Of a stretch of 64,000 nt of DNA, positions 1,508 through 34,080 are shown one piece after another. How positions within the stretch are numbered: the stretch's first letter is position 1; each line of letters starts with the position of its first letter. Origin of the DNA: Algisphaera agarilytica (GTDB lineage: Bacteria; Planctomycetota; Phycisphaerae; Phycisphaerales; Phycisphaeraceae); the NCBI RefSeq assembly GCF_014207595.1, contig NZ_JACHGY010000001.1, positions 1,116,001 to 1,180,000 of the forward strand, read 5' to 3'. Below the pieces are notes generated by a model. That model did no database searches and was not told where the DNA came from. It saw only the letters and a program-made list of their open reading frames with translations. The translations under genes were made by a program, and so were the position numbers.

Positions 1508-3379
1508 TCACTCGTGGTACCCGAATTGCACGATGCGGTCCACTTCATCGATGGTGATCGATTGCTGCTCGCCGTTGGTCCAGGTGACGGTCGCGCTATC
1601 GATCTGGTTGATCGGGCCCAGGCCGATATGCTGGTAGGTATTCAGGGGGTGAGAGAACGCCGCGGGTGTGGTGCCCACCGTTCGGGTGTAGGTGTGGCCG
1701 CCCGCTTCGACGACTATCTTGGCGCCCTGAGGTGTTGCTTCTTTCCTGGGCGACCACCCGATGTCGGCGATGAGGTAGTGGCGATCCGCCGCCGCTTCGA
1801 GATGGTTTTCGTAGAGGTACCACCGGCCCTTTTCGTTGTTGTAGACCAAGTCCAGGTCGCCGTCGAGGTCAAAGTCAAACACCTCCGCGCCGCCGCCGGT
1901 CGCCCCTAGTTCTTCGGAGACAATACCGTGGCCTTCAACACGCGTGAACGACTCGCCTTTCTGATTCATAAACAGGACCTGAGCCTGGGCCTTGGTCGGA
2001 TCACCGTAGCGGACGACAAAGATGTCCGACCAGCCGTCGTTGTCGAAGTCGCCGACCGCAGCGCTGGTGGTCTGCTCCGGAAGATCGATTCCGAACTCTG
2101 CGGTCACATCGACAAACTTGCCGTCGCGGTTCTCAAAGAGGAGTGCGGGCATGTCTTCTTCGAGGATGATTTCGGGGGCGGAGATTACGTTGTGCACCAC
2201 CGCGGAGGTACCCGCACGGGTTTCACCCGCGATACGCCAGCGCCCTTCGCCGGTGTGCCCGAGGTACAGGCCGGGGTCTGACCAATCCTCTGGGAAACCT
2301 TGGGCCTGGTCGGTTGTGAGGGTGAAGTCTTTATGGCCGTGTCGGTCGACATCGAACGTAATCAGGTCTTTTGCCTCACCCGAGAACACATCAAAGTGCG
2401 GATAGGCCATTTGGAGGTTTTCGACTTTCATATCGCCGTCGATCTCGATCCTCTCGACATCGAATTTCGCCCGGCGGAAATGGAAGTAGTAGGTGTGCTC
2501 TTCCCCGCAGTAGCAACGCTTTTCGGAGAACGGGTGCCCGGCTCGGGTCACAAACAGATCGAGATCGCCGTCGTTGTCGAAGTCGATCTCGGCCAAGCCT
2601 TTTACAAAGTTGGTGTGTTTCAGGTCGCCCAGGACACTGTCGGTTGCGTCGATGAAGGAGTGCGATTCTCCCCCTTGGGCCACCTTGATGTCATCCCCGC
2701 CATAGAGAAACACATCGACTTTCCCATCGCCGTTGAAATCGGTGGTGAGGATGCGGAACCCCATCCATTTGGTCTGCGGGAAACGGCTGGTCTGGAGGAA
2801 TTGCCCGGTGCCGTCGTTCGTGTAGAGGATGTCGGCACCGTCGGCCTGCGTCTTCAACGGAAACGCGGTGAGGACAAGGTCCAGAACACCGTTGTTGTCC
2901 GTGTCGATGAGTTTCGCGGCTCGGCCACGGGCGCGTTCGAAGTGTTCGAATTCATCGCCCCCTTCGATCGTGCGGTCGCGGTTGACGTGGTACCAAACCG
3001 GGTTGCGAGGGTTGGAGCCGTCGCCCCCTCCCCGGGAGACGACCAGGTCGATACGACCGTCCTGGTCGTAATCGCCCGCCGCGATGCCGTGCGTATCCCC
3101 ATTGACCAAGAGCTGCGGCTCTTCAGAGAACTGCCCTTCGTCATTCCAGTAAATCCGAGCGCGTTGGCTGTGCTCGGTGATGATGATGTCTTCCCACCCG
3201 TTCTGATCGAGGTCGGCGATCAACGCGCTGTCCCATTTCCGACGCGACCGGTCTTCAAACGTGATGTTGTCGGATTTGGCAAACTTCGGAGCCTTGTCCT
3301 CTTCACCCGCGACGGCGGCGGAAGGCGGCATCGCAAACGCCAAAGCAATCAGGCCCAGTGAACAGGTGGAGGTTTTCAT
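1508..3379 (-). CDS. Secreted FG-GAP/VCBS repeat protein with UnbV/ASPIC C-terminus
   Basis: 623 residues. A Sec signal peptide (about residues 1-24, ending in AAVAG) is followed by at least seven calcium-binding FG-GAP type repeats such as DYDQDGRIDLVV, DFNGDGKVDVFL and DFDNDGDLDLFV, which build a beta-propeller. The last about 90 residues resemble the UnbV/ASPIC domain (PQGAKIVVEAGG, then the tail to VQFGYHE). The start has a Shine-Dalgarno AGGAA. Such CRTAC1-like proteins are common in planctomycetes and marine Bacteroidetes, probably extracellular and possibly binding or adhesive; no enzymatic role can be assigned. It lies between a sulfatase and a PEP-CTERM protein gene. Confidence 0.85.
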   Translation of the reverse strand: MKTSTCSLGLIALAFAMPPSAAVAGEEDKAPKFAKSDNITFEDRSRRKWDSALIADLDQNGWEDIIITEHSQRARIYWNDEGQFSEEPQLLVNGDTHGIAAGDYDQDGRIDLVVSRGGGDGSNPRNPVWYHVNRDRTIEGGDEFEHFERARGRAAKLIDTDNNGVLDLVLTAFPLKTQADGADILYTNDGTGQFLQTSRFPQTKWMGFRILTTDFNGDGKVDVFLYGGDDIKVAQGGESHSFIDATDSVLGDLKHTNFVKGLAEIDFDNDGDLDLFVTRAGHPFSEKRCYCGEEHTYYFHFRRAKFDVERIEIDGDMKVENLQMAYPHFDVFSGEAKDLITFDVDRHGHKDFTLTTDQAQGFPEDWSDPGLYLGHTGEGRWRIAGETRAGTSAVVHNVISAPEIILEEDMPALLFENRDGKFVDVTAEFGIDLPEQTTSAAVGDFDNDGWSDIFVVRYGDPTKAQAQVLFMNQKGESFTRVEGHGIVSEELGATGGGAEVFDFDLDGDLDLVYNNEKGRWYLYENHLEAAADRHYLIADIGWSPRKEATPQGAKIVVEAGGHTYTRTVGTTPAAFSHPLNTYQHIGLGPINQIDSATVTWTNGEQQSITIDEVDRIVQFGYHE

Positions 3380-4581: not shown

Positions 4582-5502
4582 TTAGGCTTGGCGACGATAG
4601 TCGCGAGGACTATGCCCGGTTACGGCTTTGAATCGTTTACTGAAATTCGAATAGTCGCTGTAGCCCACCTTGAAACAGATATCCAGCATGCTGTCGGAAG
4701 TGCTGCGCATCAGCGACTTTGCTAAGTCCATGCGGAGGCTGGTCAGATAGTTGACGAAGGACATGCCGGTGTATTGCTTGATCAAAAGGCTGAAGTAGCT
4801 CACCGAAACATTGGCGACTTCGGCGACCTCTTCAAGCGTAATCGGTTCCGCCAGGTGCTCGTGGATATAGGCCAGGGCCTTGAGAAGCCCCGCGCGGTGG
4901 CGGGTTGCGGCCACTTTAATCGAGCGTTGCGAGCTTTCGACCGATTCCTTTTGCGTTGAGCTGTGGTCTGAGATCCCGAGCAGCAGATTGAGGAAGACAC
5001 ATTTGGACTTAGCGGTCGAAGCGACATCGTCGTGAGTGGCCAAATCGGCGAGCTGGATGAACAATTGCTCGAGCAATTCGATACTGTCTTGGGGGACCGA
5101 GAGCCGAACGGCCGAGACGTCCTCTTCGGCAAGCGGGAGCATGGCGTTGAAGAAGTAGTAGTTCGGTGATTTTGACGTCACGATCTCCTCAAGCCCTGAA
5201 ACGCTTGAGTCGATCGCCCGGGGCAGGAAGCTGCAGGAATACGCTCGCGGGGCTGCTTTGGGCGACCACGTCTCGAGCTGGTGCTGGATAAACGGCTTGA
5301 GGATTAAGATGTCACCCGCCTCGAGCGACATCTCCATGTCGGCCAGCCGATTGTGCAGTGTTCCCTCGGCCACAAAAATGATCTCAAAGAACTCGTGTCG
5401 GTGGAGATCGCTCTGTGGCAGCGGACGTTCAGCGATGCGCGTTGCCGTAACGGGCAACACTTCGTTGTGGAACAACTCTTTTGCGAGAATGAGGAATGAC
5501 AC
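4582..5502 (-). CDS. AraC-family transcriptional regulator with cupin sensor domain
   Basis: 306 residues from a GTG start. The N-terminal half (about 1-120) has cupin features: an LHRHEFFEI histidine cluster and GDILILKPFIQHQLE. The C-terminal 100 residues are a double helix-turn-helix with the AraC signature: ITLEEVAEVANVSVSYFSLL, then DICFKVGYSDYSNFSKRFK and TGHSPRDYRR. Such regulators bind a sugar in the cupin domain. It sits 93 bp downstream of the GH127 gene on the same strand, so it is the probable activator of the block up to 16.8 kb; the target sites are not identified. Confidence 0.9.
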   Translation of the reverse strand: MSFLILAKELFHNEVLPVTATRIAERPLPQSDLHRHEFFEIIFVAEGTLHNRLADMEMSLEAGDILILKPFIQHQLETWSPKAAPRAYSCSFLPRAIDSSVSGLEEIVTSKSPNYYFFNAMLPLAEEDVSAVRLSVPQDSIELLEQLFIQLADLATHDDVASTAKSKCVFLNLLLGISDHSSTQKESVESSQRSIKVAATRHRAGLLKALAYIHEHLAEPITLEEVAEVANVSVSYFSLLIKQYTGMSFVNYLTSLRMDLAKSLMRSTSDSMLDICFKVGYSDYSNFSKRFKAVTGHSPRDYRRQA

Positions 5503-5595: not shown

Positions 5596-7620
5596 TTATG
5601 ACCAGATGACCGGCATGAAGACCGTCATCTCGCTCTGTCCGCGGTTGGCCCAGGCGAAGTAAGGAACAAGCTGCGAAGAGTAATCCGACCAGTCGGTTTG
5701 GTTGACAGCCCGGTACATGCCTTCTGACTGATCGCGACGAAGCGTGAGGGTGCCATTCAGAACGGTCACGCCGCCGAGGAAATCAGGCCGGTATTCGGGA
5801 GCAAAATCATCACTCGCTTTGAGATAGACATCGAGAATACTGGTTTTTTCCGGTAGATCAGGCGATTCGATGCAGTACACGATCGGGCCGCGGGTCATCG
5901 CGATCTGGTTGCGCAGCTCTTCGATACGCGGGTGGCCTTCGATTTTTTGGACCGGCATCGGCAGTGTCAATTCGACAACGTCGCCCGCCTTCCAAGACCG
6001 GTTAAGGGTTAGGAATTGGCCCTGTGTGGTCTGCTCTGCCACGGCTTCGCCGTTGACGGTTGCCTGAGCGCCGTGGGCCCAGCCGGGGATCCGCAGCATC
6101 ACCGCAAACGGTTCGGTTTTGCATTCGTCCACGGTGAACCGGACCTGGCCGTCCCATGGATACTGAGTTTCTTGACGCAGCTTGAGTGCGGAACCGTCTT
6201 GCAGCTGCGTGCTGAGTTCGTTGCCGCCATACAAGTTCACGGCAATGCCATTCTCGGCGATGCTGTAAGCCCAGGACGATGCTTTGCCGATCGTGCGCAC
6301 CAGGTTGGGCGGGCAGCAGAAACACTCGATGTAGGGCAGGCGGCAGGGTTTCTCTGTCGGCGTGTGCGAGTAGTCGCGGCCGCCGTCCACCATCCGCAGC
6401 GGGTTGGCGTAGAAATATTCTTTCCCGCAAGTGCTGATGCCCGACAGGGAGCTGTTGAGCAGGGCGAGCTCCATGAAGTCGCCGTGCTTCGATTCGGAGT
6501 TAATCGACATCATCCGCCAGTTGAACATGGCGTTGGCGATGTTTGCGCACGTCTCGTTGTAAGCCATGCCGTTGTGCATCATGTATTCGGTGATGAAGGC
6601 TTCGTGTACAAAATCGACGCGCGGCGAGGAGCCGTGGTGGGTCTGGCCGATCGCGCCGGTCAGGTACATCTTCTTATCCACGACATCGGCCCAGATGCGG
6701 TCGAGCGCGTCGAGCAGCGCTTTCTCACCGGTCTCGGCGTAGACGTCGGCGACTCCGGCGTAGAGGTACATCGCCAACACGGCGTGGCCCACGGCTTGGG
6801 TTTCTTCGCGGATCGGCACCCGGTCTTGGCACATGTCACCGCGGAACGCAGCGTTCACGCCGGGCTCGGGCTCGTTCCATTCGTAGTCGCGGTTGGCCCC
6901 GCGCATATCGACGAAGATCTGGGCCAGCTCGAGATACTTCTGGTCCCGTGTTAAGCGGTAGAGTTCAACGAGCCCCATGATCTGCGATGGGTTGAAGCCG
7001 AAGCGGGCCAGCTTTGCCGGGCGGGGCTGGAAGACGGTGTAGATGTAGTCGGCGTTCTTGATCGCGATGTCGAGGAAGTTGGTCTTCCCGGTCAACCGGT
7101 TGTGGATGACCCCGCCGGTAAACAGGTGGCCTGCGTTGTAGAGCTCGTGCATCTGGCGATTATCAAACCGCTCGAACTTGTTGATGGTGACGTGTGTCGA
7201 GAGGTAGCCGTCGTCTTCCTGGGCCTGGCCGATGACTTCGATGATCTCATCCAACTCTTCGAGGATCTTTTCATCGCCGTTGAGGGCATACATGTAGACC
7301 GCGGCTTCCATCCATTTATAGAAGTCGCCGTCGTGCCACCATTCGCCTTTGTGCTCGCCTTCCTTAAGGCCCGCGGCGATCTTGAAGTTGTTGTATGCGT
7401 GGCCGATATCGCCTTTGAGGATGGTCCCCATGTGTGGCACCATCACATCCTCACAAAGCTTGACCTTGTCGGCCCAGAACCCTTCGGTCCAACGGCAATC
7501 GCGCACGCCGATCGAACGCAGCTTGACGTAGGGGCTCTCGCTATTGTCCATAACGGCGTGCTTCTGCGGAGGGGTTTGGCCCAGAGCGGTCGCAGTGGAG
7601 GATAGATTCGTAGAACTCAT
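5596..7620 (-). CDS. GH127 family glycoside hydrolase (beta-L-arabinofuranosidase-like)
   Basis: 674 residues, (alpha/alpha)6 barrel plus C-terminal beta domains. The zinc-thiolate active site of characterised GH127 (HypBA1: E338, C340, C417, C418) is present: N-E-T-C gives E356 and C358, and E-C-F-C-C gives C435 and C436. The 77-residue spacing between C358 and C435 equals that of HypBA1. No signal peptide is evident, so it probably acts on imported oligosaccharides. Shine-Dalgarno AGGAAA lies upstream of the ATG. Known activities include beta-L-arabinofuranosidase; GH127 members in carrageenan loci have been reported to remove 3,6-anhydro-D-galactose. The anhydrosugar genes nearby suggest the latter, while the intact zinc site also fits the former. 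Confidence 0.88.
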   Translation of the reverse strand: MSSTNLSSTATALGQTPPQKHAVMDNSESPYVKLRSIGVRDCRWTEGFWADKVKLCEDVMVPHMGTILKGDIGHAYNNFKIAAGLKEGEHKGEWWHDGDFYKWMEAAVYMYALNGDEKILEELDEIIEVIGQAQEDDGYLSTHVTINKFERFDNRQMHELYNAGHLFTGGVIHNRLTGKTNFLDIAIKNADYIYTVFQPRPAKLARFGFNPSQIMGLVELYRLTRDQKYLELAQIFVDMRGANRDYEWNEPEPGVNAAFRGDMCQDRVPIREETQAVGHAVLAMYLYAGVADVYAETGEKALLDALDRIWADVVDKKMYLTGAIGQTHHGSSPRVDFVHEAFITEYMMHNGMAYNETCANIANAMFNWRMMSINSESKHGDFMELALLNSSLSGISTCGKEYFYANPLRMVDGGRDYSHTPTEKPCRLPYIECFCCPPNLVRTIGKASSWAYSIAENGIAVNLYGGNELSTQLQDGSALKLRQETQYPWDGQVRFTVDECKTEPFAVMLRIPGWAHGAQATVNGEAVAEQTTQGQFLTLNRSWKAGDVVELTLPMPVQKIEGHPRIEELRNQIAMTRGPIVYCIESPDLPEKTSILDVYLKASDDFAPEYRPDFLGGVTVLNGTLTLRRDQSEGMYRAVNQTDWSDYSSQLVPYFAWANRGQSEMTVFMPVIWS

Positions 7621-7725: not shown

Positions 7726-10494
7726 TTACTGGCGCGGGCGTCGTCGGCCATAGGCCAAAGCCCCCGAAACGAGTATCGCCAAGGCGGTCGAGGGCTCGGG
7801 CACAACCCGAATGGTGCCCGAGGTCAAAAGGCTGTCCGCATCCCACGTTAAGCCTTGCCCAAGTTCTGGCAAGATCAAGACATCAAATTCACCTTGGGCC
7901 GAGTCGAAGCTTAACAAGTCAAAAACGTCGCCCAGATTTGCGTTGTATGAAGGGGCTGTTCTGACTTCAAGCGTACCTCCTGTCACCTGCAATTGCCCCA
8001 AAATTTCCAGTTGATCGTACGCGGTACCTGCCACACCCGATCCGTCGATTTCGAGGAGCAGTGTTGAGCCGTCTTCAAACGTCGTGTCGCCATCAATGGT
8101 CAAGCGGCCGGGGCTCGATCCGGGCTGCACGGTGGCACCCGATGAGATGGTTAGCTCGCCGACCAATGTTCCGGATCCGCCGATGGTTTGGCCGTCCATC
8201 AGCGTGAGTCCACCGGTATTCGTTGCCGAGGCGTCCAGCGTGGCCCCTTCAGAAATTTGGATCGAAGAAGTCTGATCCAGTGCCGCCCCACCGATGAGGG
8301 CCAAGGTGCCGCCCTCGACAAGCGTGGCGCCCGAGTGGATGGCTTGGCCGTTCAGGCTGACGGTGCTGGTGCCACGCTTGATGAGATCGCGAGACTCAAA
8401 ATACTCTCGGACGGTGCCGTTGACGTTGACCGTGACGTCGCCGTCGCCGGTGAACGCCAGGTTGTCGTAAAGGATCAGATCAAGGTCGAGATCGTAGGTG
8501 AAGCGTCCGGTCGAGGAGTGGGTGGCGTCGACCGCAATCTCGGCCTGTTGGCCGGTGAGGCTCTCGGTGAACAGCACGGACAGGCCGTCGATCGTCGCGC
8601 GGTGGTTGTCTGCCTCGGTGTAATCGCCGCTGAGGACCATTTGGTTGAGCATAAACTCGAGGCCGGTGCGGCGGAGCAAATCGTTCGTGGCGGTGTAGTC
8701 ACTGTCGTGTGTGCCAAACTCGAGCACAGCGCTCGCAAAGCCGTCGGCACGGAGCAGAAACTTTTCGTCGTTGGTCCCCGCTTCAAACCAGTTCAGCGTG
8801 CCGTTGGGATTGCCCGAAGCATCGAAATACGAGACGCCGTCGGCTTTCCCGCCCGACCAGGCGGTGCTCCCGGCATTGGGGTTGAACACGTGGTGGTCGA
8901 ACACGTTGAGCGGCTCTTCTTCGAGCGTACGAGCCAGAATCGAATACCGCGGCTTATCGAAGAATGCTTCGTAGTCCGTTAGGTCACGCTTGAGTTCTTC
9001 GATCAGGTCGGCGTGGACGGCGTTGCCGCTCAGGTCATTCGATTCGTCGATGTCGTCGGCTACGTTGTACAGGCGGAAGCGGTCTTCCCGAGCGTTGGTC
9101 GTGTTCGTATTGACCAGTTTCCATTGATCGTCGTCTTTATCCTTGATGACCGCGAAAGTCCCGCGCCACCGGTGGACCAAGACCTCATGCGGATCGTCGC
9201 TGGTCTGGCCGTTGATGAAGGGCAGGAGGTTGACGCCATCGATCTGTTCCTCCCCTTCAATCGGTTGAGCCCCGGAAAGCGAGAGAACGGTGGGGAGGAT
9301 ATCGATCCCGTGTACGGGCTTGTTGTAGATCGTGCCCTGGGCCGATTCATCGATGCCCGCACCCGCGATGAGCATCGGGACCCGGATGCCGCCCTCTTTG
9401 GGTGAGCCTTTTACATTGGGAAACAGGCCGTTATCCGTGCCGTCGCCGAACGCATCGGAGCCCGAGACGCCGCCGTTGTCGTTCACAAACACGATGGTTG
9501 TGTCGTCGGCGATGCTGTCGCTGGTGTTCCCGTCCCCGTTGGGGTCTTCCAGCCGATCGAGGATCCGGCCGATTTCTCTGTCCATCGTGATCATCATCGA
9601 CCCGACTTCCTTACGCACGCCTTGAAGGCCCGCAAGGCGGGGGTCGTTGAAGTCTGGTGAATCGTCGCTCCAGGGTTTGTGAGGAGCGGTGAACGACTGG
9701 TAGAGAACAAACGGGTCTTCGTTGGCGTGGTCTTCGATGAACTGAACACCATAATCGCCGAAAACATTGGTGATGTATTCGCCGCTGCGGGTGCCTTCGA
9801 CCACGGTATCGGTCACCGTGCCGTCCGATTGGCGTACGGTTTCGCGCATGTAGCGCGGCTGCAGAGCACTGTTGGGGTTGTTGATCTGGTTCAGGTTGTA
9901 GCTGCGCCCAAGGATGTAGTCGCGCGAACCGTGCCAGTGGCCGTAGAACTCATCGACACCCTGGTCTTGAGGTCGGTTGATCCCTTCGATCGAGCCGAGG
10001 TGCCATTTCCCGACGGCGCCCGTGGCGTAGCCTTCGGCTTTAAACCGATCCCAAAGGGTGGGGGTGGCGTCGGGGATGCCTTCGAATCCAAACTCAGCGA
10101 TCTGGCTCTGAAGAAACAGGTTGTTGCCGACACTCTCGTTGCCGATGCGTTGCTGGTACGCCCCGGTGATGATTGCCGCGCGGGTCGGTTGGCAGTTCGC
10201 GGCCACATAAGCGCGATCAAACGTCACGCCCCGGTTGGCCAACGCGTCGAGGTTGGGGGTGAGCGAAGTCGCAAATCCGGTTGTGGGGTCGGTCCCACTG
10301 ATCCCGTTGTTTTGCATAAAGCCGAAGTCGGCATATCCCGCATCATCCGCAACAATCACAATGACGTTCTTGGCGTTTTGGCCCTGAGCGGGCATGCCCG
10401 CAAGCGCAACACACAAGAAGATTGGGCAGGCCGCAAATCTCAATTTTGTATGCCACTGGCTAGGAAACAGGTTGCGAGAATTGAAGGGAATCAT
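7726..10494 (-). CDS. Secreted S1 sulfatase fused to autotransporter-type repeats and PEP-CTERM tail
   Basis: 922 residues, nearly twice the usual sulfatase length. Signal peptide about 1-39 (ending MPAQGQ); sulfatase domain about 42-510 with IVIVADDAGYADFG metal ligands and formylglycine motif C-Q-P-T-R at C101, and the FVNDNGG block. Residues about 530-690 form a beta-sandwich-like linker; about 690-880 are autotransporter-associated (PATR-like) repeats such as TLVEGGTLALIGGAAL and VQPGSSPGRLTIDGD; the protein ends in VPEPSTALAILVSGALAYGRRR, a PEP-CTERM signal. The enzyme would thus be displayed on or beyond the outer surface. It lies between the cycloisomerase and GH127 genes on the same strand. 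Substrate unknown. Confidence 0.9.
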   Translation of the reverse strand: MIPFNSRNLFPSQWHTKLRFAACPIFLCVALAGMPAQGQNAKNVIVIVADDAGYADFGFMQNNGISGTDPTTGFATSLTPNLDALANRGVTFDRAYVAANCQPTRAAIITGAYQQRIGNESVGNNLFLQSQIAEFGFEGIPDATPTLWDRFKAEGYATGAVGKWHLGSIEGINRPQDQGVDEFYGHWHGSRDYILGRSYNLNQINNPNSALQPRYMRETVRQSDGTVTDTVVEGTRSGEYITNVFGDYGVQFIEDHANEDPFVLYQSFTAPHKPWSDDSPDFNDPRLAGLQGVRKEVGSMMITMDREIGRILDRLEDPNGDGNTSDSIADDTTIVFVNDNGGVSGSDAFGDGTDNGLFPNVKGSPKEGGIRVPMLIAGAGIDESAQGTIYNKPVHGIDILPTVLSLSGAQPIEGEEQIDGVNLLPFINGQTSDDPHEVLVHRWRGTFAVIKDKDDDQWKLVNTNTTNAREDRFRLYNVADDIDESNDLSGNAVHADLIEELKRDLTDYEAFFDKPRYSILARTLEEEPLNVFDHHVFNPNAGSTAWSGGKADGVSYFDASGNPNGTLNWFEAGTNDEKFLLRADGFASAVLEFGTHDSDYTATNDLLRRTGLEFMLNQMVLSGDYTEADNHRATIDGLSVLFTESLTGQQAEIAVDATHSSTGRFTYDLDLDLILYDNLAFTGDGDVTVNVNGTVREYFESRDLIKRGTSTVSLNGQAIHSGATLVEGGTLALIGGAALDQTSSIQISEGATLDASATNTGGLTLMDGQTIGGSGTLVGELTISSGATVQPGSSPGRLTIDGDTTFEDGSTLLLEIDGSGVAGTAYDQLEILGQLQVTGGTLEVRTAPSYNANLGDVFDLLSFDSAQGEFDVLILPELGQGLTWDADSLLTSGTIRVVPEPSTALAILVSGALAYGRRRPRQ

Positions 10495-10701: not shown

Positions 10702-11919
10702 TCAGATTTTCGAAACGCGAGACTTGCTAGGCCAGCTTGATGTGGTCCCAATGCTTAGGGGTGTTTTGGGGGTTAGAGTCTCGGTATCTTGCACGCAGTA
10801 CTTGCGCAGCATGTCGAGGTCCGGCTCGACTCCGAGCCCGGGGCGGGTGGGTACCTGGATTTTCCCGTCGATCACGTCCAGGGGATTGATGTACATATCG
10901 TCCCGCATCGGGTTGGGGGTCCGGTCGACTTCCAGCAATAATTCGTTGGGGGTAAGTCGGCCCGGCTCTACATAACTTGAGGCCAGGAAGTGGGTGGCGG
11001 CCGCCAAGTTAAGCATGGTGCCCCAAACATGCGGGACCGCGCGGACCCCAAAAGAGGAGGCGATCGCTCTGATCTTCAAAGCTTCGGTGGGGCCGCCGCA
11101 GTAAGCCAGGTCGGGCTGAGCGATATGGACGCCGCCGTGATCCAGCAGGTCCTTGAAGCCCCATCGGGTTTGTTCGCATTCGCCGGTGGCGATGGGCACA
11201 TCGATTTTGTTGGCGAGCTTGCGGAACTGGTCGGGGTGTTGGGGCGAGAGCGGTTCTTCAAACCATGCAAACGCGTTCTCTTCGAGGGCTCGACCGATCT
11301 CAATCGCCTCGGGCAGGTCGTAGGCGTGATTCGAGTCCGCCATCAGTTGGGCCTTCGGCGCAAGCTTGCGGAGTTCATGGATCTGCCGTTTGTCGAAGTC
11401 CAGGTTCTTGCCCACCTTGATCTTCAGTGCTTTGAAACCCTGGCTCAGGTACTCGCTCGCCTCATTCAGAATGGTGTCGAGTAGTTGCGGCTCGGGCTGA
11501 TCTCGGAAGTACATGCCGGTGGCGTAACAACTCACGGTGTCTCGGAGCCGTCCGCCCATAAGTTCTGAGGCCGAGACGTGAAGCAGCTTGCCTTTCAGGT
11601 CCAGCATCGCCATATCCAGGCCCGAAATCGCCCCCATCATGATGCCCTTGCGGGCGAAGTCGAGAGAGGACCGCCAGCAGTGTTGCCAAGCGGCTTCATT
11701 ACGCAACGGATCCATGCCGATCAGTTTGTCGGCATAAAAGGTCGAGATCGCGGATTGCGTGACCGCGGCGGGCCCGTAGCACTCGCCCCACCCAATGGTT
11801 CCCGAGTCGTCGACGATCTCAACCAGAAGGCCGTGCCGCGTTTTATAGTTCCACTGAGAAAAACCAAATGGTTCGTCTAGCTCATGTTCAATTCGGTAGG
11901 TGCGGATGCATTCGATCAT
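10702..11919 (-). CDS. Enolase-superfamily (mandelate racemase/muconate lactonizing type) enzyme, candidate 3,6-anhydrogalactonate cycloisomerase
   Basis: 405 residues. Catalytic positions are easily read: K166-x-K168 (LKIKVG), metal ligands D195 (MADSNHA), E221 (WFEEP) and E247 (TGECEQ), and the D270/H297 dyad (AQPD and VPHVWG), matching mandelate racemase almost residue for residue. In agar and carrageenan degraders a member of this superfamily opens 3,6-anhydrogalactonate to 2-keto-3-deoxygalactonate. The neighbouring kinase, aldolase and dehydrogenase support that role; a galactarate or other sugar acid dehydratase is the alternative. The last about 25 residues (after YCVQDTETL) form an unusual Ser/Pro/Lys-rich tail. 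Confidence 0.85.
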   Translation of the reverse strand: MIECIRTYRIEHELDEPFGFSQWNYKTRHGLLVEIVDDSGTIGWGECYGPAAVTQSAISTFYADKLIGMDPLRNEAAWQHCWRSSLDFARKGIMMGAISGLDMAMLDLKGKLLHVSASELMGGRLRDTVSCYATGMYFRDQPEPQLLDTILNEASEYLSQGFKALKIKVGKNLDFDKRQIHELRKLAPKAQLMADSNHAYDLPEAIEIGRALEENAFAWFEEPLSPQHPDQFRKLANKIDVPIATGECEQTRWGFKDLLDHGGVHIAQPDLAYCGGPTEALKIRAIASSFGVRAVPHVWGTMLNLAAATHFLASSYVEPGRLTPNELLLEVDRTPNPMRDDMYINPLDVIDGKIQVPTRPGLGVEPDLDMLRKYCVQDTETLTPKTPLSIGTTSSWPSKSRVSKI

Positions 11920-11970
11920 GTTAAGAACTCAGGGAAAGATGAAAACAGAAAGGAATTGGCATGGGCCTCG

Positions 11971-13059
11971 TCAACGAACGACACGCCCTGAAGCAGCGCC
12001 GTGCATCAACGCTTCGACCTCGGGCCGGGTAGAGAAATTGAAATCGCCCTTGATCGAGTGTTTGAGGCAAGACGCCGCCACCGCGTAACGCACGGCATCA
12101 CCGGGCGCTTGTAACGCCGGGGTGTTTAGCGCGAAAATTAGGCCGCCCGCGAATGAGTCGCCACCCCCGACCCGGTCGACAATGTTCTTGATCTCGTAGG
12201 GCTGATAGTCGGCGTTATCGTTGAGCGGCGCGAAGTAAGGCTTATCCTCGGCGGAGTCGTAGAGCATCGCACCCCAGTTGTTGTGATTAGCCGAGAGGCT
12301 TTCTCTTAGAGTGATCGCTACTTTCTGCACATTGGGGAACTGTTCCACCACGCGCCGGGCGACCAACGGATACCCATCGATCTCCAGCGAACCCGCCTCA
12401 ACGTCGGTATCTCCCGCACGGATGTCCAGGACGTCCGCGCAGTCTTCTTCGTTGGCGATCACCACCGAGACTTGCGGCAGGATTCGCCCCATGACCTGGC
12501 GAGCCAATTCACGGCTTGGGAGATCGGGCGACCAGCCCCAAAGCTTCTTGCGAAAGTTCAGATCGATCGACACCGGGACGCCGGCTTGCTGGGCCGCCTT
12601 TGCCGCACGTTCGGTGGCATCCGCCGCAACTTCCGACAAGGCGGGGGTGATGCCGCTGAGGTGGAGCCAGCCGGCGCCTTCGAAGATGGCTTCCCAGTCG
12701 TACTGATCCGCGGGGGTGATGGCCACCGCGGCGTCGGCCCGGTCGTAGAGCACATTGCTGGGTCTCTGGTTGGCGCCCGTCTCTAAGAAGTACAGGCCCA
12801 TCCGGCCGTGTTCGGGGCGGACAATATGGCTGGCGTCGATCCCCACCGCCCGGATGGTGTCCATCGCGGCTTCGCCGAGGGCATTGTTGGGCAGCGCGGT
12901 GACGTACCGGGCCGAGCCTCCGAAATTACAGATCGAGGCGCAGACGCTCGCTTCTGCGCCGGCGTATGTCACGTCCAGAGCGCGTGTCTGACGTAGCCGG
13001 AGACGTTCCGGGCAAGCCAGGCGGCACATAATTTCACCAAAACCAACGACGGGCTTCAT
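11971..13059 (-). CDS. PfkB-family sugar kinase, 2-keto-3-deoxygluconate/galactonate kinase-like
   Basis: 362 residues, ribokinase fold. The N-terminal GFGEIMCRLACPERLRLRQ and glycine pair GG (about 47-48) match KDG kinases. The anion-hole and catalytic base motif GGGDSFAGG is at about 298-306 with Asp301 as base. Expected reaction: ATP-dependent phosphorylation of 2-keto-3-deoxy-gluconate or -galactonate at C6. It is 51 bp upstream of the cycloisomerase gene and downstream of the aldolase gene, one probable transcription unit. Confidence 0.9.
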   Translation of the reverse strand: MKPVVGFGEIMCRLACPERLRLRQTRALDVTYAGAEASVCASICNFGGSARYVTALPNNALGEAAMDTIRAVGIDASHIVRPEHGRMGLYFLETGANQRPSNVLYDRADAAVAITPADQYDWEAIFEGAGWLHLSGITPALSEVAADATERAAKAAQQAGVPVSIDLNFRKKLWGWSPDLPSRELARQVMGRILPQVSVVIANEEDCADVLDIRAGDTDVEAGSLEIDGYPLVARRVVEQFPNVQKVAITLRESLSANHNNWGAMLYDSAEDKPYFAPLNDNADYQPYEIKNIVDRVGGGDSFAGGLIFALNTPALQAPGDAVRYAVAASCLKHSIKGDFNFSTRPEVEALMHGAASGRVVR

Positions 13060-13185
13060 CGAACCAAAACTCCCAAAACAATGTGCAATTCACACATCAA
13101 CAAACAATCGTCACATACGGCTCGCTTGCCGTTGTTACGCGCTCCGTCTGTTATCCTGCCGCCGGGATCCATCACCGGGGCTTGG

Positions 13186-13208
13186 CTTGAGGTGGTCTTC
13201 ACCTCAAG
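13186..13208. other. Small hairpin overlapping the aldolase stop codon
   Basis: An inverted repeat CTTGAGGTG/CACCTCAAG with a 5-nt loop overlaps the last codon and stop of the aldolase gene. There is no U-tract on either side, so it is more likely an mRNA-stabilising or attenuating hairpin than a full terminator. Confidence 0.4.
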
Positions 13209-13875
13209 CAACTTCTGATAGCGCTAATCGCTCAACCGTGGCCCGCGCCTCCTCGGCCCGTCGCGTGATTCCCGCCCAATCACGCGCGGCAATCATCGAC
13301 GCCGGCGCGATCCACGTGCCCCCCACCGCTGCGACCGCCGGAAGGCTGAGATAGTCGGCGACGTTTTCGTTCTTCACGCCACCAAACGGGAAGTAGCGGA
13401 TGCCGTAAGAGGCAAACGGTGCCGCCAGGCTATTTAGATAGTCTTTGCCGCCTGCCGCCTCGGCGGGAAAGAGCTTGACGAAACGCAAGCCCAGTTCGAT
13501 CGCCTGGGTCAGGTCGCTGGGGGTCATGACCCCCGGAGCGAAAGGAAGCTCCGCGTCACGTGCGGCTTGGATCACCTGGGGGCTGAGACCCGGGGCGACC
13601 CCGAAGGCCGCTCCCGCATCTTTCACTTGGTGGACTTGGTCTGGTGTCAGGATCGTGCCGACTCCCACCAACATCTCGGGCCGCGCTTCGGCGATCGCGC
13701 GGATTCCGTCGATCGCCGCGGGGGTTCGCAACGTCACTTCCAACGCATCGATGCCCCCGTCGTACAACGCGTTGGCCGTGGCGACCGCGTCGTCGACTTC
13801 TTCTGTCGAGAAGCCCGCCACCACGCGGGTGGATTCAAGCCGTTCGATGAGATGGTTGGGGAAGGCGTTGTGCAT
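13204..13875 (-). CDS. KDPG/KDPGal aldolase (Eda-like)
   Basis: 223 residues, class I aldolase TIM barrel. The catalytic Glu46 (DALEVTLRTP) and Schiff-base Lys134 (RFVKLFPAE) align with E45 and K133 of E. coli Eda; the phosphate-binding YFPFGGV loop is also present. It would cleave 2-keto-3-deoxy-6-phosphogluconate (or -galactonate) to pyruvate and glyceraldehyde-3-phosphate. It stands between the aldehyde dehydrogenase (66 bp upstream) and the kinase (144 bp downstream), giving the complete lower branch of an anhydrogalactose or sugar-acid pathway. Confidence 0.93.
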   Translation of the reverse strand: MHNAFPNHLIERLESTRVVAGFSTEEVDDAVATANALYDGGIDALEVTLRTPAAIDGIRAIAEARPEMLVGVGTILTPDQVHQVKDAGAAFGVAPGLSPQVIQAARDAELPFAPGVMTPSDLTQAIELGLRFVKLFPAEAAGGKDYLNSLAAPFASYGIRYFPFGGVKNENVADYLSLPAVAAVGGTWIAPASMIAARDWAGITRRAEEARATVERLALSEVA

Positions 13876-13941
13876 GGTGTTGTCGTATCGAGTCCTGAAT
13901 CTCGGGTTGGTACTCCAACCGCTTGGGGCGAGCGAATAGGG

Positions 13942-15348
13942 TTACGTCGGATCGATCTGAATCGAAACACGCTTGAGCGTGAGGTATTCCTCAAGGCTGT
14001 ACTTCGAGCAGTCTTTTCCGACGCCGCTCTGCTTGAGGCCGCCGTGCGGGAGTTGCACGCTGTAGTGCGGCTCGTTGATGCAAACGCTCCCGGCTTTGAT
14101 CTCCCGTGCCGCACGCAACCCTTTGGTGAGGTTGGTGGTGAACACGTAGGCCGCGAGACCAAACTCGGTGTCGTTCGCCAATGCGATCTCGTTGTCGGTG
14201 TCGGAGAACGGCAGCACGGACAACACGGGGCCGAAGACCTCGCTGCAGGCCACCGACATCGAGCGATCGACATCGCGGAGGATGGTGGGAGGCATGAAAA
14301 AGCCCGGGCCGTCCTCCGCGTGGCCACCACAAAGCACCGTGGCTCCGCCCTCTTTGGCGGTTTCCACGAGGCCGAGTATGCGAGTGCGTGCCTCTGCGGA
14401 GACCAAGGGGCCGATCTTGTTCAGGCTGGTGGTGTGTTGAACCGCGGCGTCCAGAAATGCCTCGTAAATACTTTCGTGAACAAAGCAACGGTTGGGGGAC
14501 ACACAGACCTGGCCGGTGTTTGCGAACTTGAGGTCCACGATTTGCCGGGCCGCGTCTTCGATCGGGGCGTCGGGGTAGACGACGGCAGGCGAGTTGCCGC
14601 CCAATTCAACGGAGAATCGTTTCACGCTGGTGCACGAACGATCCATGACCTGCAGGCCGCCGCGTGTCGAGCCGATCATCGTCACCAGTGAGGGGATGTC
14701 GCTCTCGAGCAGGCCGCCCACGACGTCGTGGTCCGAACAGGTCACTATGTTGACGACCCCGTCGGGCAGCCCCGCCTTCTTGGCTAGGTAGCCAACTTCA
14801 AGCGAGGCCAGCGGGGTTTCCAGCGCTGGCTTGAGGATGACGCTACACCCCGCCGCGAGCGCGGGGCCCAGCTTGTATCCCAGGTTGAGGAGTGGGAAGT
14901 TCCAGGCCAAAACGCCGACGACAACCCCCAAGGGCTGACGCAGCGTGTAGTGAAGGAACCGGCCATCCGGATCGTGCAGAACGGGCTGATCCAGCCGCTC
15001 GGCCTCCTCCACGAAATACCGCAAGCACGTCGTGAGCATCCCGAAGTCGTACTCCGCGTTGTCACGCGGCTTGCCGGTTTCCGAGATCAAGAGATCAATC
15101 AGTCGATCTTTCTCGGCTTCGATGAGTTCGGCATACCGCAAGACGATTTCGCGCCTCGCCGCAGGCGACATCGTGGACCAGACCTGGAACCCCTTCTCTG
15201 CGGCAACGAGTGATTGCTGAATCAGCGCAGGGCTGATGTCGGGGACCTCGCCCGCCGGTTGCCCGGTGGCGGGGTTGATCACGGTTGCGGTGGCGTCGGC
15301 TTCGAGCTGTTCGCCGTTGATAAGAACAGGGTAAAGGGTGCTCAGCAT
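13942..15348 (-). CDS. NAD(P)-dependent aldehyde dehydrogenase, candidate 3,6-anhydrogalactose dehydrogenase
   Basis: 468 residues, normal for the ALDH superfamily. Catalytic residues: Asn150 (LAWNFPLL), Lys173 (LKPA), Glu248 (VELGGNSP) and nucleophile Cys282 (GQVCVSPNR). The family oxidises aldehydes to acids; succinate-semialdehyde dehydrogenases are the closest everyday type. In red-algal galactan degraders an ALDH of this kind oxidises 3,6-anhydrogalactose to the aldonate, and the presence of cycloisomerase, kinase and aldolase directly downstream supports that. It begins 29 bp after a sulfatase gene on the same strand. Confidence 0.9.
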   Translation of the reverse strand: MLSTLYPVLINGEQLEADATATVINPATGQPAGEVPDISPALIQQSLVAAEKGFQVWSTMSPAARREIVLRYAELIEAEKDRLIDLLISETGKPRDNAEYDFGMLTTCLRYFVEEAERLDQPVLHDPDGRFLHYTLRQPLGVVVGVLAWNFPLLNLGYKLGPALAAGCSVILKPALETPLASLEVGYLAKKAGLPDGVVNIVTCSDHDVVGGLLESDIPSLVTMIGSTRGGLQVMDRSCTSVKRFSVELGGNSPAVVYPDAPIEDAARQIVDLKFANTGQVCVSPNRCFVHESIYEAFLDAAVQHTTSLNKIGPLVSAEARTRILGLVETAKEGGATVLCGGHAEDGPGFFMPPTILRDVDRSMSVACSEVFGPVLSVLPFSDTDNEIALANDTEFGLAAYVFTTNLTKGLRAAREIKAGSVCINEPHYSVQLPHGGLKQSGVGKDCSKYSLEEYLTLKRVSIQIDPT

Positions 15349-15377
15349 GGTCTTCGGTTATCGCTTCCCAAGAGGTA

Positions 15378-16814
15378 TTAATCGAGATCGGTCGAGAAGG
15401 TCTTCTCGTACTTGGGCATATCTTCTTTGATCCAGCGTTCGCGTGCTTCGGGAGCATGGAACCAGCCGGGCTCGGTGTGCTGCTTGGCCAACTCACGCAT
15501 CTCGCCGACAATCTCTTTGATCTTTTCGGGATAGCGCTGACGCAGGTTGTTGTTCTCGCCGGGGTCTTCGGCCACGTTGTAGAGCAGCCACGGACGGTGG
15601 TTGAAACGCACCACCTTGAAGTCACCCATCCGGGCACCCACATCGCTGTAGCCGGCTTTGTGGTTCACGGTGTAGATAATCCGTGTGTCGCTGGGCGAGC
15701 TTCCATCTTGTACCGAGGCCATGATGTCCAGGCCGTCGAGTTCCTTGTCGCTGGGGATCTCGGCTTCCGCTAGCCCGGCGAACGTCGGGTAGAAGTCCAA
15801 CGCGGTGACCGGGTGGCGATACGTCCGTCCGCCCTCGATCCCCTTGGGCCAGTGCATGAACATCGGAACGCGGAAGCCACCCTCAAAGGTGCTGCCTTTA
15901 CCCGCACGGAGCGGTGCGTTGTTGCCGCCCTTATCCGTACGACCGCCGTTGTCGCTGAGGAAAACGATCAGGGTGTTCTCGAACTCGCCCTGGTCTTTCA
16001 GCGTGTCGACGATTTCGCCCACACCGCGGTCGACCGCGTACACCATGCCGGCGTATATCTTGCGTTGCTCGTCGGTGATGTCGGGGAACATGGCCATGTC
16101 TTCTTCTTTGGCCTGCAGCGGCGTGTGTGGTGCGTTGTAGGAAACAAAGAGGAAGAACGGTTGATCCTTGTCGCCGGCTTCACGGATAAACCGGCAAGCC
16201 TCGCGCGACAAACCGTCGGTCACGTATTCGGTTTCTCTGACTTCCTGGCCGTTGTGCTCCAGCGGATGGAGGTAGTCCCACGGGTTGTTGTTGCCGTTGG
16301 CGATCTGCAGATCGTACTGGGCGTGGAACCTGTCGGGGAAGTACTCCTTGCCGCCGCCCAGGAAGCCGTAGAAGTCGTCGAAGCCCCGCTTGTTGGGGTG
16401 GTACGGGGCCGTGCTGCCCAGGTGCCACTTACCGATCAGGCCGGTGTAATACCCCGCGTCTTGAAGGGTACTGCTCATGAGTTTTTCGGAGACGGGGATC
16501 CCCCAGTCGTTCGGGCCGTAGCGGTTCGGGGGCAGGTTGTAGGGGCCGCCGAATTCGTGGGGGTAACGCCCCGACAACATCCCCATACGCGACGGGCCGC
16601 AGAAAGGGTGGACCACGTAACCGGAGGTAAAGATCACGCCGTCGTGTGCGAGCTTGTCGAGTTCTGGGGTGATGATGTCGGGTGAGTCGTTAAAACCGAC
16701 ATCGGCGTAGCCCTGGTCGTCGGTGAGGATCAAGATGATGTTGGGACGGTCGTCTGCCCGCACTGCCGGGGAGATTGCGACAACAAGTAGGGTCAGTAGA
16801 AGTCGAAGATTCAT
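15378..16814 (-). CDS. Secreted S1 sulfatase
   Basis: 478 residues when started at the ATG at 16814, chosen because it begins a clean signal peptide (MNLRLLLTLLVVAISPAVRA); the frame is open 35 codons further upstream but those codons are not signal-like. ILTDDQGYADVGF gives metal ligands, and the formylglycine motif C-G-P-S-R is at C72. IGKWHLG and FLSDNGG follow, typical of arylsulfatase A-like families in marine galactan loci. It is the first gene of the probable unit sulfatase-ALDH-aldolase-kinase-cycloisomerase. Periplasmic or extracellular; exact sulfate position unknown. Confidence 0.92.
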   Translation of the reverse strand: MNLRLLLTLLVVAISPAVRADDRPNIILILTDDQGYADVGFNDSPDIITPELDKLAHDGVIFTSGYVVHPFCGPSRMGMLSGRYPHEFGGPYNLPPNRYGPNDWGIPVSEKLMSSTLQDAGYYTGLIGKWHLGSTAPYHPNKRGFDDFYGFLGGGKEYFPDRFHAQYDLQIANGNNNPWDYLHPLEHNGQEVRETEYVTDGLSREACRFIREAGDKDQPFFLFVSYNAPHTPLQAKEEDMAMFPDITDEQRKIYAGMVYAVDRGVGEIVDTLKDQGEFENTLIVFLSDNGGRTDKGGNNAPLRAGKGSTFEGGFRVPMFMHWPKGIEGGRTYRHPVTALDFYPTFAGLAEAEIPSDKELDGLDIMASVQDGSSPSDTRIIYTVNHKAGYSDVGARMGDFKVVRFNHRPWLLYNVAEDPGENNNLRQRYPEKIKEIVGEMRELAKQHTEPGWFHAPEARERWIKEDMPKYEKTFSTDLD

Positions 16815-22164: not shown

Positions 22165-22312
22165 CCGCCAACGATCAACTCATCCCGGCCGGCTTGGAGA
22201 AGTGGGCCCGCTTGGCTCACCGCCGGGTCCTGTCGCGGTGCACCATTGATATGATCGCAAGGCAGAAGGTTGTTGCGATCTCACTGAATCATTGTCCGGA
22301 GTTTTTTCACCG

Positions 22313-23842
22313 ATGACCCGCATTCTTTATCTCGACCTCGATGCCCTCAACCCGACGCATCTGGGCTGCTATGGCTATCACCGCAACACCTCGCCCAACA
22401 TCGACGCGATCGCGCAGCAGGGCATCCGTTTCGACAACGTCTACTGCTCCGACGCCCCCTGCCTGCCGTCGCGGACCGCGTTGTATCAGTGCCGCTTCGG
22501 GATCCGCACCGGCGTGGTCGGGCACGGCGGCACCGCGGCCGATCCCAAACGGCAGGGCGAGACGCGCGGCTTCCGCTCCGTCCTCGAAGAGCACAGCTTC
22601 CCCCGCATGCTGCAGAAGCGCGGCTACCACACCGCGATGATCTCGCCGTTCGGCCAACGCCATGCGGCCCACCAGTACTACGCGGGTTTCAACGAGATGC
22701 ACAACACCGGCGAGGGCGGGCAGGAACCTGTCGAAACCGTGCAGCCCGTGGTCGAGCGCTGGCTAGACGCCCACGCTGCTGAGCCGTCCTGGTACCTGCA
22801 CCTGAACTACTGGGACATCCACACGCCCTACCGCACACCGCTCGATTACGGCAACCCGTTCGACGATGTCCCGATCGCGGACTGGTACACGGATGAGTTG
22901 ATCGCAGAACACGTCGCCCGCGGCGGGCCGCACTCGGCGCAAGACCTCGACATGTATCACGACGCCGATTCCGATCGGTACCCGCGCTTGCCGCGGCGGA
23001 TCACCGACCGTGCGTCCCTGAAACAATGGATCGACGGCTACGACGTGGCCATCCGCTACGTGGACGAGGCGGTCGGCAAACTCGTCGACCAGCTCAAGCG
23101 GGCCGGCGTGTACGACGACACCGCGATCATCATCTCCGCGGACCACGGCGAGAACCAGGGCGAACTAGAGATCTACGGCGAACACGGCACCGCCGACCAC
23201 GCCACCTGCCACATCCCCTTCATCTTGAAATGGCCCGGCGGCCAGGCCGGCGCCACCGACGACGGCCTGCACTACCACCTCGACTGGCCCGCGACCTGCC
23301 TCGAGCTGCTGGGCGAGTCGGATGAACACGAACCGACCCCCGCGGGTTGGGACGGGCGCAGCTTTACCCCGACCGTTACCGAAGGCAAAGCCCAGGGGCG
23401 CGACGAGCTGGTCCTGTCGCAATGTGCTCACGTGTGTCAGCGCTCGGTCCGGTTCGACGAAGGCGATCACCGCTGGCTCTACATCCGGACCTACCACGAT
23501 GGGTTCCACCCCTTCCCCGATCACATGTTGTTCGACCTGGCCAGCGATCCGCAGGAGCAGCACAACCTAGCCGATGCGCATCCCGAGGTGCTGCGTGAGG
23601 CGAACTGGCGTTTGTCGGGGTGGCACGACGAGGCGATGTCCAAGATCGCCCGCGATTCTGCCGACGTGACCGATCCGATGCGCACGGTGCTCCGCGAAGG
23701 CGGCCCGTACCACGCGTGCTCGTACATCCACGGCCGACGATCGGAAGAACTGACGCGGTACCTTCAGAAGCTCCGGGACTCGGGCCGAGCAGCCGCCGCC
23801 GAGAATTTAGAACGCCGCTATCCGCTGGTGAAGGGGGCCTAG
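22313..23842 (+). CDS. S1 sulfatase without signal peptide
   Basis: 509 residues from the ATG at 22313 (MTRILYLDLDALNPTHLG); an upstream in-frame start 21 bases earlier adds only non-conserved residues. Formylglycine motif C-L-P-S-R at C50; IISADHGENQGE holds metal ligands; LHLNYWDIHTPYRTP is typical of the family. No export signal, so probably cytoplasmic. Codons are GC-rich like the RND operon downstream and richer than block A. It is on the same strand as the sulfatase fragment, about 150 bp after it. Confidence 0.92.
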   Translation: MTRILYLDLDALNPTHLGCYGYHRNTSPNIDAIAQQGIRFDNVYCSDAPCLPSRTALYQCRFGIRTGVVGHGGTAADPKRQGETRGFRSVLEEHSFPRMLQKRGYHTAMISPFGQRHAAHQYYAGFNEMHNTGEGGQEPVETVQPVVERWLDAHAAEPSWYLHLNYWDIHTPYRTPLDYGNPFDDVPIADWYTDELIAEHVARGGPHSAQDLDMYHDADSDRYPRLPRRITDRASLKQWIDGYDVAIRYVDEAVGKLVDQLKRAGVYDDTAIIISADHGENQGELEIYGEHGTADHATCHIPFILKWPGGQAGATDDGLHYHLDWPATCLELLGESDEHEPTPAGWDGRSFTPTVTEGKAQGRDELVLSQCAHVCQRSVRFDEGDHRWLYIRTYHDGFHPFPDHMLFDLASDPQEQHNLADAHPEVLREANWRLSGWHDEAMSKIARDSADVTDPMRTVLREGGPYHACSYIHGRRSEELTRYLQKLRDSGRAAAAENLERRYPLVKGA

Positions 23843-34003: not shown

Positions 34004-34080
34004 CCCTCACGAATCGATTTCTGCATCCCTACGATCCCATACCCGCTGCAGTTACGGCCGGGCCGATGGGACCGCTCACC

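Follow-up and report, generated by a model that had tools for sequence, protein, structure and literature searches.

Our analysis of a 64,000-nucleotide stretch of the Algisphaera agarilytica genome (the window; C1:1116001-1180000 of a 4.17 Mb genome that is 99.75% complete) indicates that four adjacent genes at 10702-15348 very probably form the core of a carrageenan utilization locus acting on 3,6-anhydro-D-galactose (D-AHG), with a PfkB/KdgK-type kinase in place of the DgoK-type DauC. The four genes encode an aldehyde dehydrogenase (ALDH), an enolase-superfamily (MR/MLE) cycloisomerase, a PfkB kinase and a 2-keto-3-deoxy-6-phosphogluconate (KDPG)-type aldolase. All are intact open reading frames (ORFs) on the minus strand; the original prediction had recognized the four as lying together on one strand. 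An S1_19 sulfatase gene flanks them on one side, and a second sulfatase and a GH127 gene on the other. The original prediction drew the system at 10702-16814; the genes in that span are real, but they are only part of a locus that extends some 11 kb beyond the left edge of the window. The identity of these genes, their arrangement, their relationships and the lack of a DgoK match in the genome are established here. As a whole, the locus belongs, in diverged form, to a known type of carrageenan locus; only its substituted lower arm, meaning the kinase and the aldolase, holds broader interest.

We infer each enzymatic step in the organism, including use of the galacto epimer by the kinase and the aldolase, from gene content. 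One or both sulfatases would strip galactose-4-sulfate from kappa- or iota-type chains, and GH16_13-type enzymes encoded left of the window would then cleave the beta-type segments that this leaves. GH127 (DagA) would remove D-AHG at the non-reducing end, and a GH2 enzyme would remove galactose. The ALDH (DauA) would oxidize D-AHG to 3,6-anhydro-D-galactonate, which the cycloisomerase (DauB) would open to 2-keto-3-deoxy-D-galactonate. The PfkB/KdgK-type kinase would phosphorylate this product instead of a DgoK-type DauC, and the Eda-type aldolase, in the DauD role, would split it into pyruvate and glyceraldehyde-3-phosphate.

Identity of the cycloisomerase and the aldehyde dehydrogenase

Among solved structures, the cycloisomerase matches 5olc best (344 bits), followed by the D-galactaro-1,4-lactone cycloisomerase (GCI) 4ggb at 293 bits and, far behind, the L-type cycloisomerase 5xd7 at 99.8 bits. 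The 5olc protein is Zobellia DauB, which was assayed as a 3,6-anhydro-D-galactonate cycloisomerase (PMC5698469). The expected catalytic residues D87, K166, D195, E221, E247, H297 and W299 are all present in the window protein. At five further positions the window protein agrees with 5olc (S21, Q22, W23, Y25 and E249) and differs from GCI (A, S, M, F and W).

We compared the locus with 83 others, namely the best 80 of at least 586 confirmed DauB-like matches plus three plasmid loci; 64 of them carry dauA and dauB, and 19 carry dauB only. A Fisher test gave p 1e-4, a value that ignores relatedness. Among 65 DauB-like proteins with a DauA-kind ALDH in their stretch, S21 and Q22 occur in all, Y25 in 64, and W23 and E249 in 63 each. 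The corresponding counts for the 19 proteins that have no such ALDH nearby are 19 for S21, 17 for Q22, 10 each for W23 and Y25, and 18 for E249. These positions appear to separate the DauB group from GCI, a distinction that falls short of proving function.

Trees of DauB and ALDH were made by a quick method with SH-aLRT support only, after repeat entries of genes from the window itself had been removed, as was also done for the aldolase and kinase trees. The DauB tree has 89 rows (two proteins of more than 430 aa, L072 and L085, were left out) and a chosen outgroup of galactonate dehydratases and two paralogues with very long branches. The window protein groups with sequences from Verrucomicrobiota and Kiritimatiellota (92, not starred) inside a 14-row set (97) that includes gammaproteobacteria and a Planctomycetaceae metagenome-assembled genome (MAG). 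The 5olc protein lies in a separate 62-row clade (99), and the DauB of Pseudoalteromonas carrageenovora falls in a set with GCI (97).

Could the cycloisomerase be GCI of a uronate pathway? The 4ggb structure is its second-best solved match, and the metal and acid/base residues are common to the two proteins. The five residues listed above follow 5olc instead, GCI is placed elsewhere in the tree and the neighboring genes are of carrageenan type, all of which makes this assignment scarcely credible. A second alternative is that the enzyme is a D-galactonate dehydratase of the De Ley-Doudoroff route, with the kinase and aldolase serving galactose. Such a route would call for identical kinase and aldolase reactions, and the genome encodes a galactonate dehydratase at about C1:541.6 kb while giving no DgoK match. 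That enzyme scores 464 bits on the NCBIfam galactonate dehydratase model PRK14017 (cut-off 311), whereas the window protein scores 176, lies far in the tree from both it and the P. carrageenovora Gdh, and has a DauA-kind ALDH as its neighbor. We therefore reject the galactonate dehydratase identity on score and tree, and consider the De Ley-Doudoroff assignment highly improbable; a kinase and aldolase that serve both galactose and D-AHG would be compatible with the carrageenan assignment. The best NCBIfam model of the cycloisomerase, arabinonate dehydratase, is also below its cut-off and was not used as a name.

The ALDH has as its best solved match 6pnu (370 bits), ahead of a succinate-semialdehyde dehydrogenase (SSADH) at 323 bits; the 6pnu paper assayed the DauA of Pseudoalteromonas PS47 (PMC6923384). 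Its catalytic residues E248 and C282 are present (motifs ELGG and GQVC). In a 70-row tree, made without three short ALDH fragments, the window protein groups with 63 ALDHs encoded beside dauB-like genes, including P. carrageenovora DauA; two ALDHs annotated as SSADH and three paralogues from the same genome lie outside this group, and the tree carries a warning for long branches. L060_5247, an ALDH of another dauB locus, did fall with the SSADH-annotated rows. We reject an SSADH identity for the window protein on the scores and the tree; its best NCBIfam model, an SSADH subfamily, was below cut-off and was not used. Phylogeny of both enzymes had been put forward as a check in the original prediction, and it does not refute the prediction: the ALDH sorts with the dauB-neighbor ALDHs, not with those annotated as SSADH, and the cycloisomerase groups with neither the genome's galactonate dehydratase nor GCI.

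Polysaccharide-degrading genes and the agar alternative

The genes around the core argue for carrageenan as the substrate. The S1_19 sulfatase scores 591 bits to 9hh3 (S1_19), 568 to 6bia and 559 to the iota-carrageenan sulfatase 6b0j, and it has matches of at least 45% identity in 16 of the 64 dauA+dauB loci and in one of the 19 dauB-only loci. The best solved match of the second sulfatase is the exo-4S-kappa-carrageenan sulfatase 6prm (216.5 bits). Both sulfatase motifs are intact, CGPSR in the former and CQPTR in the latter. The GH127 protein is 59% and 57% identical to the GH127 proteins of two dauABCD loci on plasmids, the next plasmid match being 43%. That GH127 fits carrageenan loci had been predicted, and counterparts at 54-62% identity indeed occur in 23 of the 64 dauA+dauB loci (with another at 39% in L012) and in none of the 19 dauB-only loci. 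By identity and neighborhood, the window protein is probably a carrageenan-type DagA.

A genome-wide search for GH16 gave 14 matches, three of which lie directly left of the window. Two of these form a pair with 65% and 66% identity to one P. carrageenovora GH16 (62-64% with the pair as query); the other P. carrageenovora GH16 matches the locus weakly, at 23-28%. By gene order against the locus tags of PMC6262041, the close match is PCAR9_p0029, which is reported there to be 76% identical to a Paraglaciecola endo-beta-carrageenase; the GH16_13 group of beta-carrageenases is described as furcellaran-active (PMC5943477, PMC6952198). Queried with its first member, the pair has matches of at least 45% in 15 of the 64 dauA+dauB loci and in none of the 19 dauB-only loci. 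This resemblance provides a candidate endo-carrageenase, from a family that is not part of the reported core. Like neighbors recur across loci of several phyla, so the arrangement goes beyond chance.

Several observations weigh against a carrageenan locus. To our knowledge, the clade that holds the window's DauB includes no assayed enzyme, and its function therefore also rests on context and residues. Among NCBIfam models, GH127 scores highest on aceric acid hydrolase, at 734 bits against a cut-off of 950, and its best solved match is 5mqo, named a beta-L-arabinofuranosidase (542 bits); taken alone, these database names would mislead. The best solved match of the GH2 protein is BuGH2C (1019 bits), described as agarose-specific (PMC5849685), and a GH2 of at least 40% identity is found in just one of the 64 dauA+dauB loci, that of Persicobacter. 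Since this Persicobacter locus carries dauABCD and its GH2 is 69.5% identical over 407 residues before the stretch ends, the family may serve carrageenan too. A GH82 query (L011:2688-4322, PCAR9_p0028 by gene order only), run without a positive control, gave no match. No ORF in the Pfam scan was recognized as a sugar transporter, and queries of RhaT and MFS type gave no match within the window.

The most developed alternative is that the four genes handle 3,6-anhydro-L-galactose (L-AHG) from agar, the kinase and aldolase acting on 2-keto-3-deoxy-D-gluconate (D-KDG) after redox steps encoded elsewhere. The agar route does use a PfkB and Eda pair after such redox steps. A short-chain dehydrogenase/reductase (SDR) gene on the opposite strand stands by the left end of the cluster, the GH2 enzyme resembles BuGH2C as described above, and 12 matches in the genome were found with a Catenovulum GH43-like (perhaps GH117) protein. 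These GH43-like matches lie elsewhere in the genome, and Pfam places the query no closer than GH43-like; a Pfam scan of cluster ORFs showed no GH43-like gene. A GH50-like gene at 58353-60683, which the original prediction read as pointing to agar, matches two proteins at just 30% and 32%, one annotated as a beta-galactosidase and carrying an Agarase_CBM domain, the other annotated as a beta-agarase; it lies 42 kb away and says little. Its product is divergent and has no Pfam or NCBIfam match. Set against these points are the cycloisomerase scores, which favor the D-type 5olc over the L-type 5xd7 by a wide margin, the D-type best match of the ALDH, the carrageenan-type S1_19 and GH127 genes flanking the four, and the distribution of the GH16 pair. 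We consider the agar route very unlikely. The D-AHG (carrageenan) route favored in the original prediction is where the DauB and DauA matches and trees, GH127, the S1_19 sulfatase and the GH16_13-type genes agree.

The kinase and aldolase of the lower arm

The original prediction held that the D-route needs exactly these four enzymes. The reaction types are as it described, but the kinase is of PfkB/KdgK type and not of the Zobellia DauC type. It is a Pfam PfkB protein whose best solved match is the KDG kinase 2afb (274 bits). Its best NCBIfam model is an aldolase/kinase fusion protein, which at 440 bits (cut-off 700) was not used as a name. The second model, also below cut-off, is a haloarchaeal bifunctional kinase for KDG and its galacto epimer KDGal, which makes the galacto epimer a plausible substrate for the window kinase. 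DgoK (PF05035) gave no match in the genome, while two of 14 control genomes gave matches. In Zobellia, the gene in the DauC position is annotated 2-dehydro-3-deoxygalactonokinase (PMC5698469), and those of P. carrageenovora and Flammeovirga are annotated likewise and match PF05035.

Across the 64 dauA+dauB loci, the kinase is DgoK in 28 and PfkB in 14, with none carrying both; in the remaining 22 neither was seen in the stretch examined, where the flanks of the 80 matched loci are at most 10 kb and are often ended by contig ends. This classing was checked by PF05035 in two DgoK genes and by PF00294 in two PfkB genes, and the rest is by tblastn. Identity to the window kinase is 56-74% for 11 of these PfkB kinases and only 24-29% for the other three (L050, L079 and L088). 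The window aldolase is a class I KDPG/KDPGal aldolase by Pfam and belongs to the Eda branch, not to the branch of the DgoK loci: a branch with support 96/90 splits 29 aldolases from DgoK loci from 15 from PfkB loci, the window included. Mapped onto the DauB tree, kinase type changes at least eight times over 44 rows, with 5olc labeled from its paper and without a shuffle control.

A second Eda-type aldolase and PfkB/KdgK pair is present in the same genome (L126:7988-9793, about C1:1941988-1943793), near SDR and GH43-like genes. Its kinase (C1:1942705-1943790) is 74% identical to the window kinase and groups with it (95/91), and its aldolase (C1:1942033-1942623) groups with the window aldolase (100/99). 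We considered whether dauCD were copied from this resident pair. This idea is weakened by the rarity of close kinases in the order (at E 1e-100, two of 81 genomes, one of them the Algisphaera genome itself) and by a Saprospiraceae kinase (L067) that is equally similar to the window kinase, at 74%, and slightly nearer by path.

These observations lead us to lean toward a model in which the lower arm is an exchangeable two-gene cassette, consisting either of DgoK with a DgoA-type aldolase or of a gluconate-type KdgK (PfkB) with an Eda-type aldolase acting on the galacto epimer. The two forms would have been swapped repeatedly across phyla, with the second form found here, in a probably transferred locus, and grouping with the genome's second pair; a 'missing dauC' would then often be an unrecognized kinase. 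Since dauC is also reported missing from some known carrageenan loci (PMC5698469), a DgoK-type DauC is not required of all members. Where a PfkB gene is present, its replacement of DauC may be a simpler account of the missing dauC in those reports than a non-phosphorylative route. The legend to Fig. 9 of that paper has an unspecified 'sugar kinase', and its authors may have seen PfkB-type genes; we found no statement of such a replacement in the carrageenan literature searched, main texts in part. The model offers a testable explanation for reported dauAB loci that have no recognized dauC. If the PfkB/Eda pair does work on the galacto epimer, predictions that require DgoK miss carrageenan users in several phyla.

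Comparison with known loci, layout and origin

The Zobellia galactanivorans locus ZGAL_3145-3159 (dauABCD, dagA, cgsA, cgrA) likewise clusters DauA, DauB, an aldolase, S1_19, GH127 and an AraC regulator, and the same reaction sequence is expected. It differs in its 2-dehydro-3-deoxygalactonokinase, whereas Algisphaera has the PfkB/KdgK-type kinase, an aldolase of the Eda branch, and GH16_13-type enzymes and a GH2 in the cluster. PUL 7 of P. carrageenovora and the PS47 CarPUL have in common with Algisphaera S1_19-type sulfatases, a beta-carrageenase-type GH16, DauA, DauB and CRTAC1. Algisphaera has GH127 and PfkB, whereas P. carrageenovora carries DgoK, its DauB is distant, and it is reported to lack GH127 (PMC6262041). 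For the planctomycete Rhodopirellula sp. SWK7, which also has dauAB, that paper reports dauAB only and reads this as gene loss; by description only, Algisphaera differs in having four adjacent genes and a substituted lower arm. Among the matches listed, the closest named DauB (54-69%) and DauA relatives come from loci L012-L023 and L026, of Verrucomicrobiota, Kiritimatiellota, gammaproteobacteria and the Planctomycetaceae MAG. L013 and L026 have PfkB and an Eda-type aldolase as in Algisphaera; L016, L017, L018, L022 and L023 have DgoK instead; and in L012, L014, L015, L019, L020 and L021 neither kinase was seen in the stretch examined.

On a plasmid of Roseibium aggregatum (L125:2971-5594), an ALDH and DauB-like pair lies beside TRAP transporter genes and groups with the P. 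carrageenovora pair; the 7.4 kb stretch holds no annotated carrageenan gene.

The genes of the Algisphaera locus are listed in Table 1. Transcription on the minus strand runs from the S1_19 sulfatase through the ALDH, aldolase, kinase, cycloisomerase, second sulfatase and GH127 to the AraC regulator, with gaps of 29-144 bases among the S1_19 sulfatase and the four pathway genes. The S1_19 sulfatase is given from its ATG; the mechanical ORF extends to 16919 from a TTG. Counterparts of the AraC regulator at 35% identity or more occur in only two of the 64 dauA+dauB loci, L012 and L013 (44% and 38%). Homologues at least 30% identical to the CRTAC1-type protein are encoded in 10 of the 64 dauA+dauB loci and in none of the 19 dauB-only loci.

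Table 1. Features of the locus; unprefixed positions are those of the window, and L100 is C1:1096001-1116000, directly to its left.
Feature	Position	Strand	Basis
SDR gene	L100:7870-8847	opposite strand, adjoining the cluster's left end	
GH4	L100:9128-10678	-	
GH16	L100:10764-12275	-	
GH2	L100:12223-14697	-	
GH16 (first of pair)	L100:14716-15750	-	65-66% to P. carrageenovora GH16
GH16 (second of pair)	L100:15862-16875	-	65-66% to P. carrageenovora GH16
FAD oxidoreductase	L100:18001-19878	-	
CRTAC1/FG-GAP-ASPIC-UnbV protein, probable accessory locus member	1508-3379	-	47% to P. carrageenovora carrageenan-locus CRTAC1 protein
AraC-family regulator, CgrA-like by position	4582-5502	-	Pfam HTH_18, AraC_binding
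GH127, probable alpha-1,3-(3,6-anhydro)-D-galactosidase (DagA)	5596-7620	-	Pfam GH127 domains
S1 sulfatase, long C-terminal region, possible exo-galactose-4-sulfate (G4S) carrageenan sulfatase	7726-10494	-	6prm match; CQPTR
DauB, predicted 3,6-anhydro-D-galactonate cycloisomerase	10702-11919	-	Pfam MR_MLE_C 198.5 bits; 5olc match; tree
PfkB/KdgK-type kinase, DauC role	11971-13059	-	Pfam PfkB; 2afb match
KDPG/KHG-type aldolase, DauD role	13204-13875	-	Pfam Aldolase PF01081 203 bits
DauA, predicted D-AHG dehydrogenase	13942-15348	-	6pnu match; tree
S1_19 carrageenan G4S sulfatase, probably secreted	15378-16814	-	9hh3 591 bits

At E 1e-80, a limit that would admit both 5olc (1e-101) and GCI (3e-86), DauB was found in one of 294 genomes sampled from the phylum and in one of 397 sampled from the class, the own genome both times; the two samples overlap and are drawn from larger groups. 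Because close DauB relatives are absent from the other sampled genomes, horizontal gain of the locus is likely, as judged from these searches. What we describe is a complete-looking carrageenan locus in a lineage where the other sampled genomes fell below the marker-gene limit. Third-position GC content averages 0.763 in 15 cluster genes and 0.797 in 22 hand-picked ORFs (p 0.023), but the values are very scattered and we do not lean on them. A scan for promoters and terminators returned fewer sites than in shuffled sequences.

Two features of the surroundings may be added. An integrase-core (rve_3) gene lies at L100:4632-5729, a few kb outside the carrageenan locus on its left side. Within the window, a PL8-type lyase gene (33955-37212) lies near S1 sulfatase genes at 22292-23842 and 30700-32118, which suggests a separate cluster for a sulfated polysaccharide, perhaps a glycosaminoglycan-like one.

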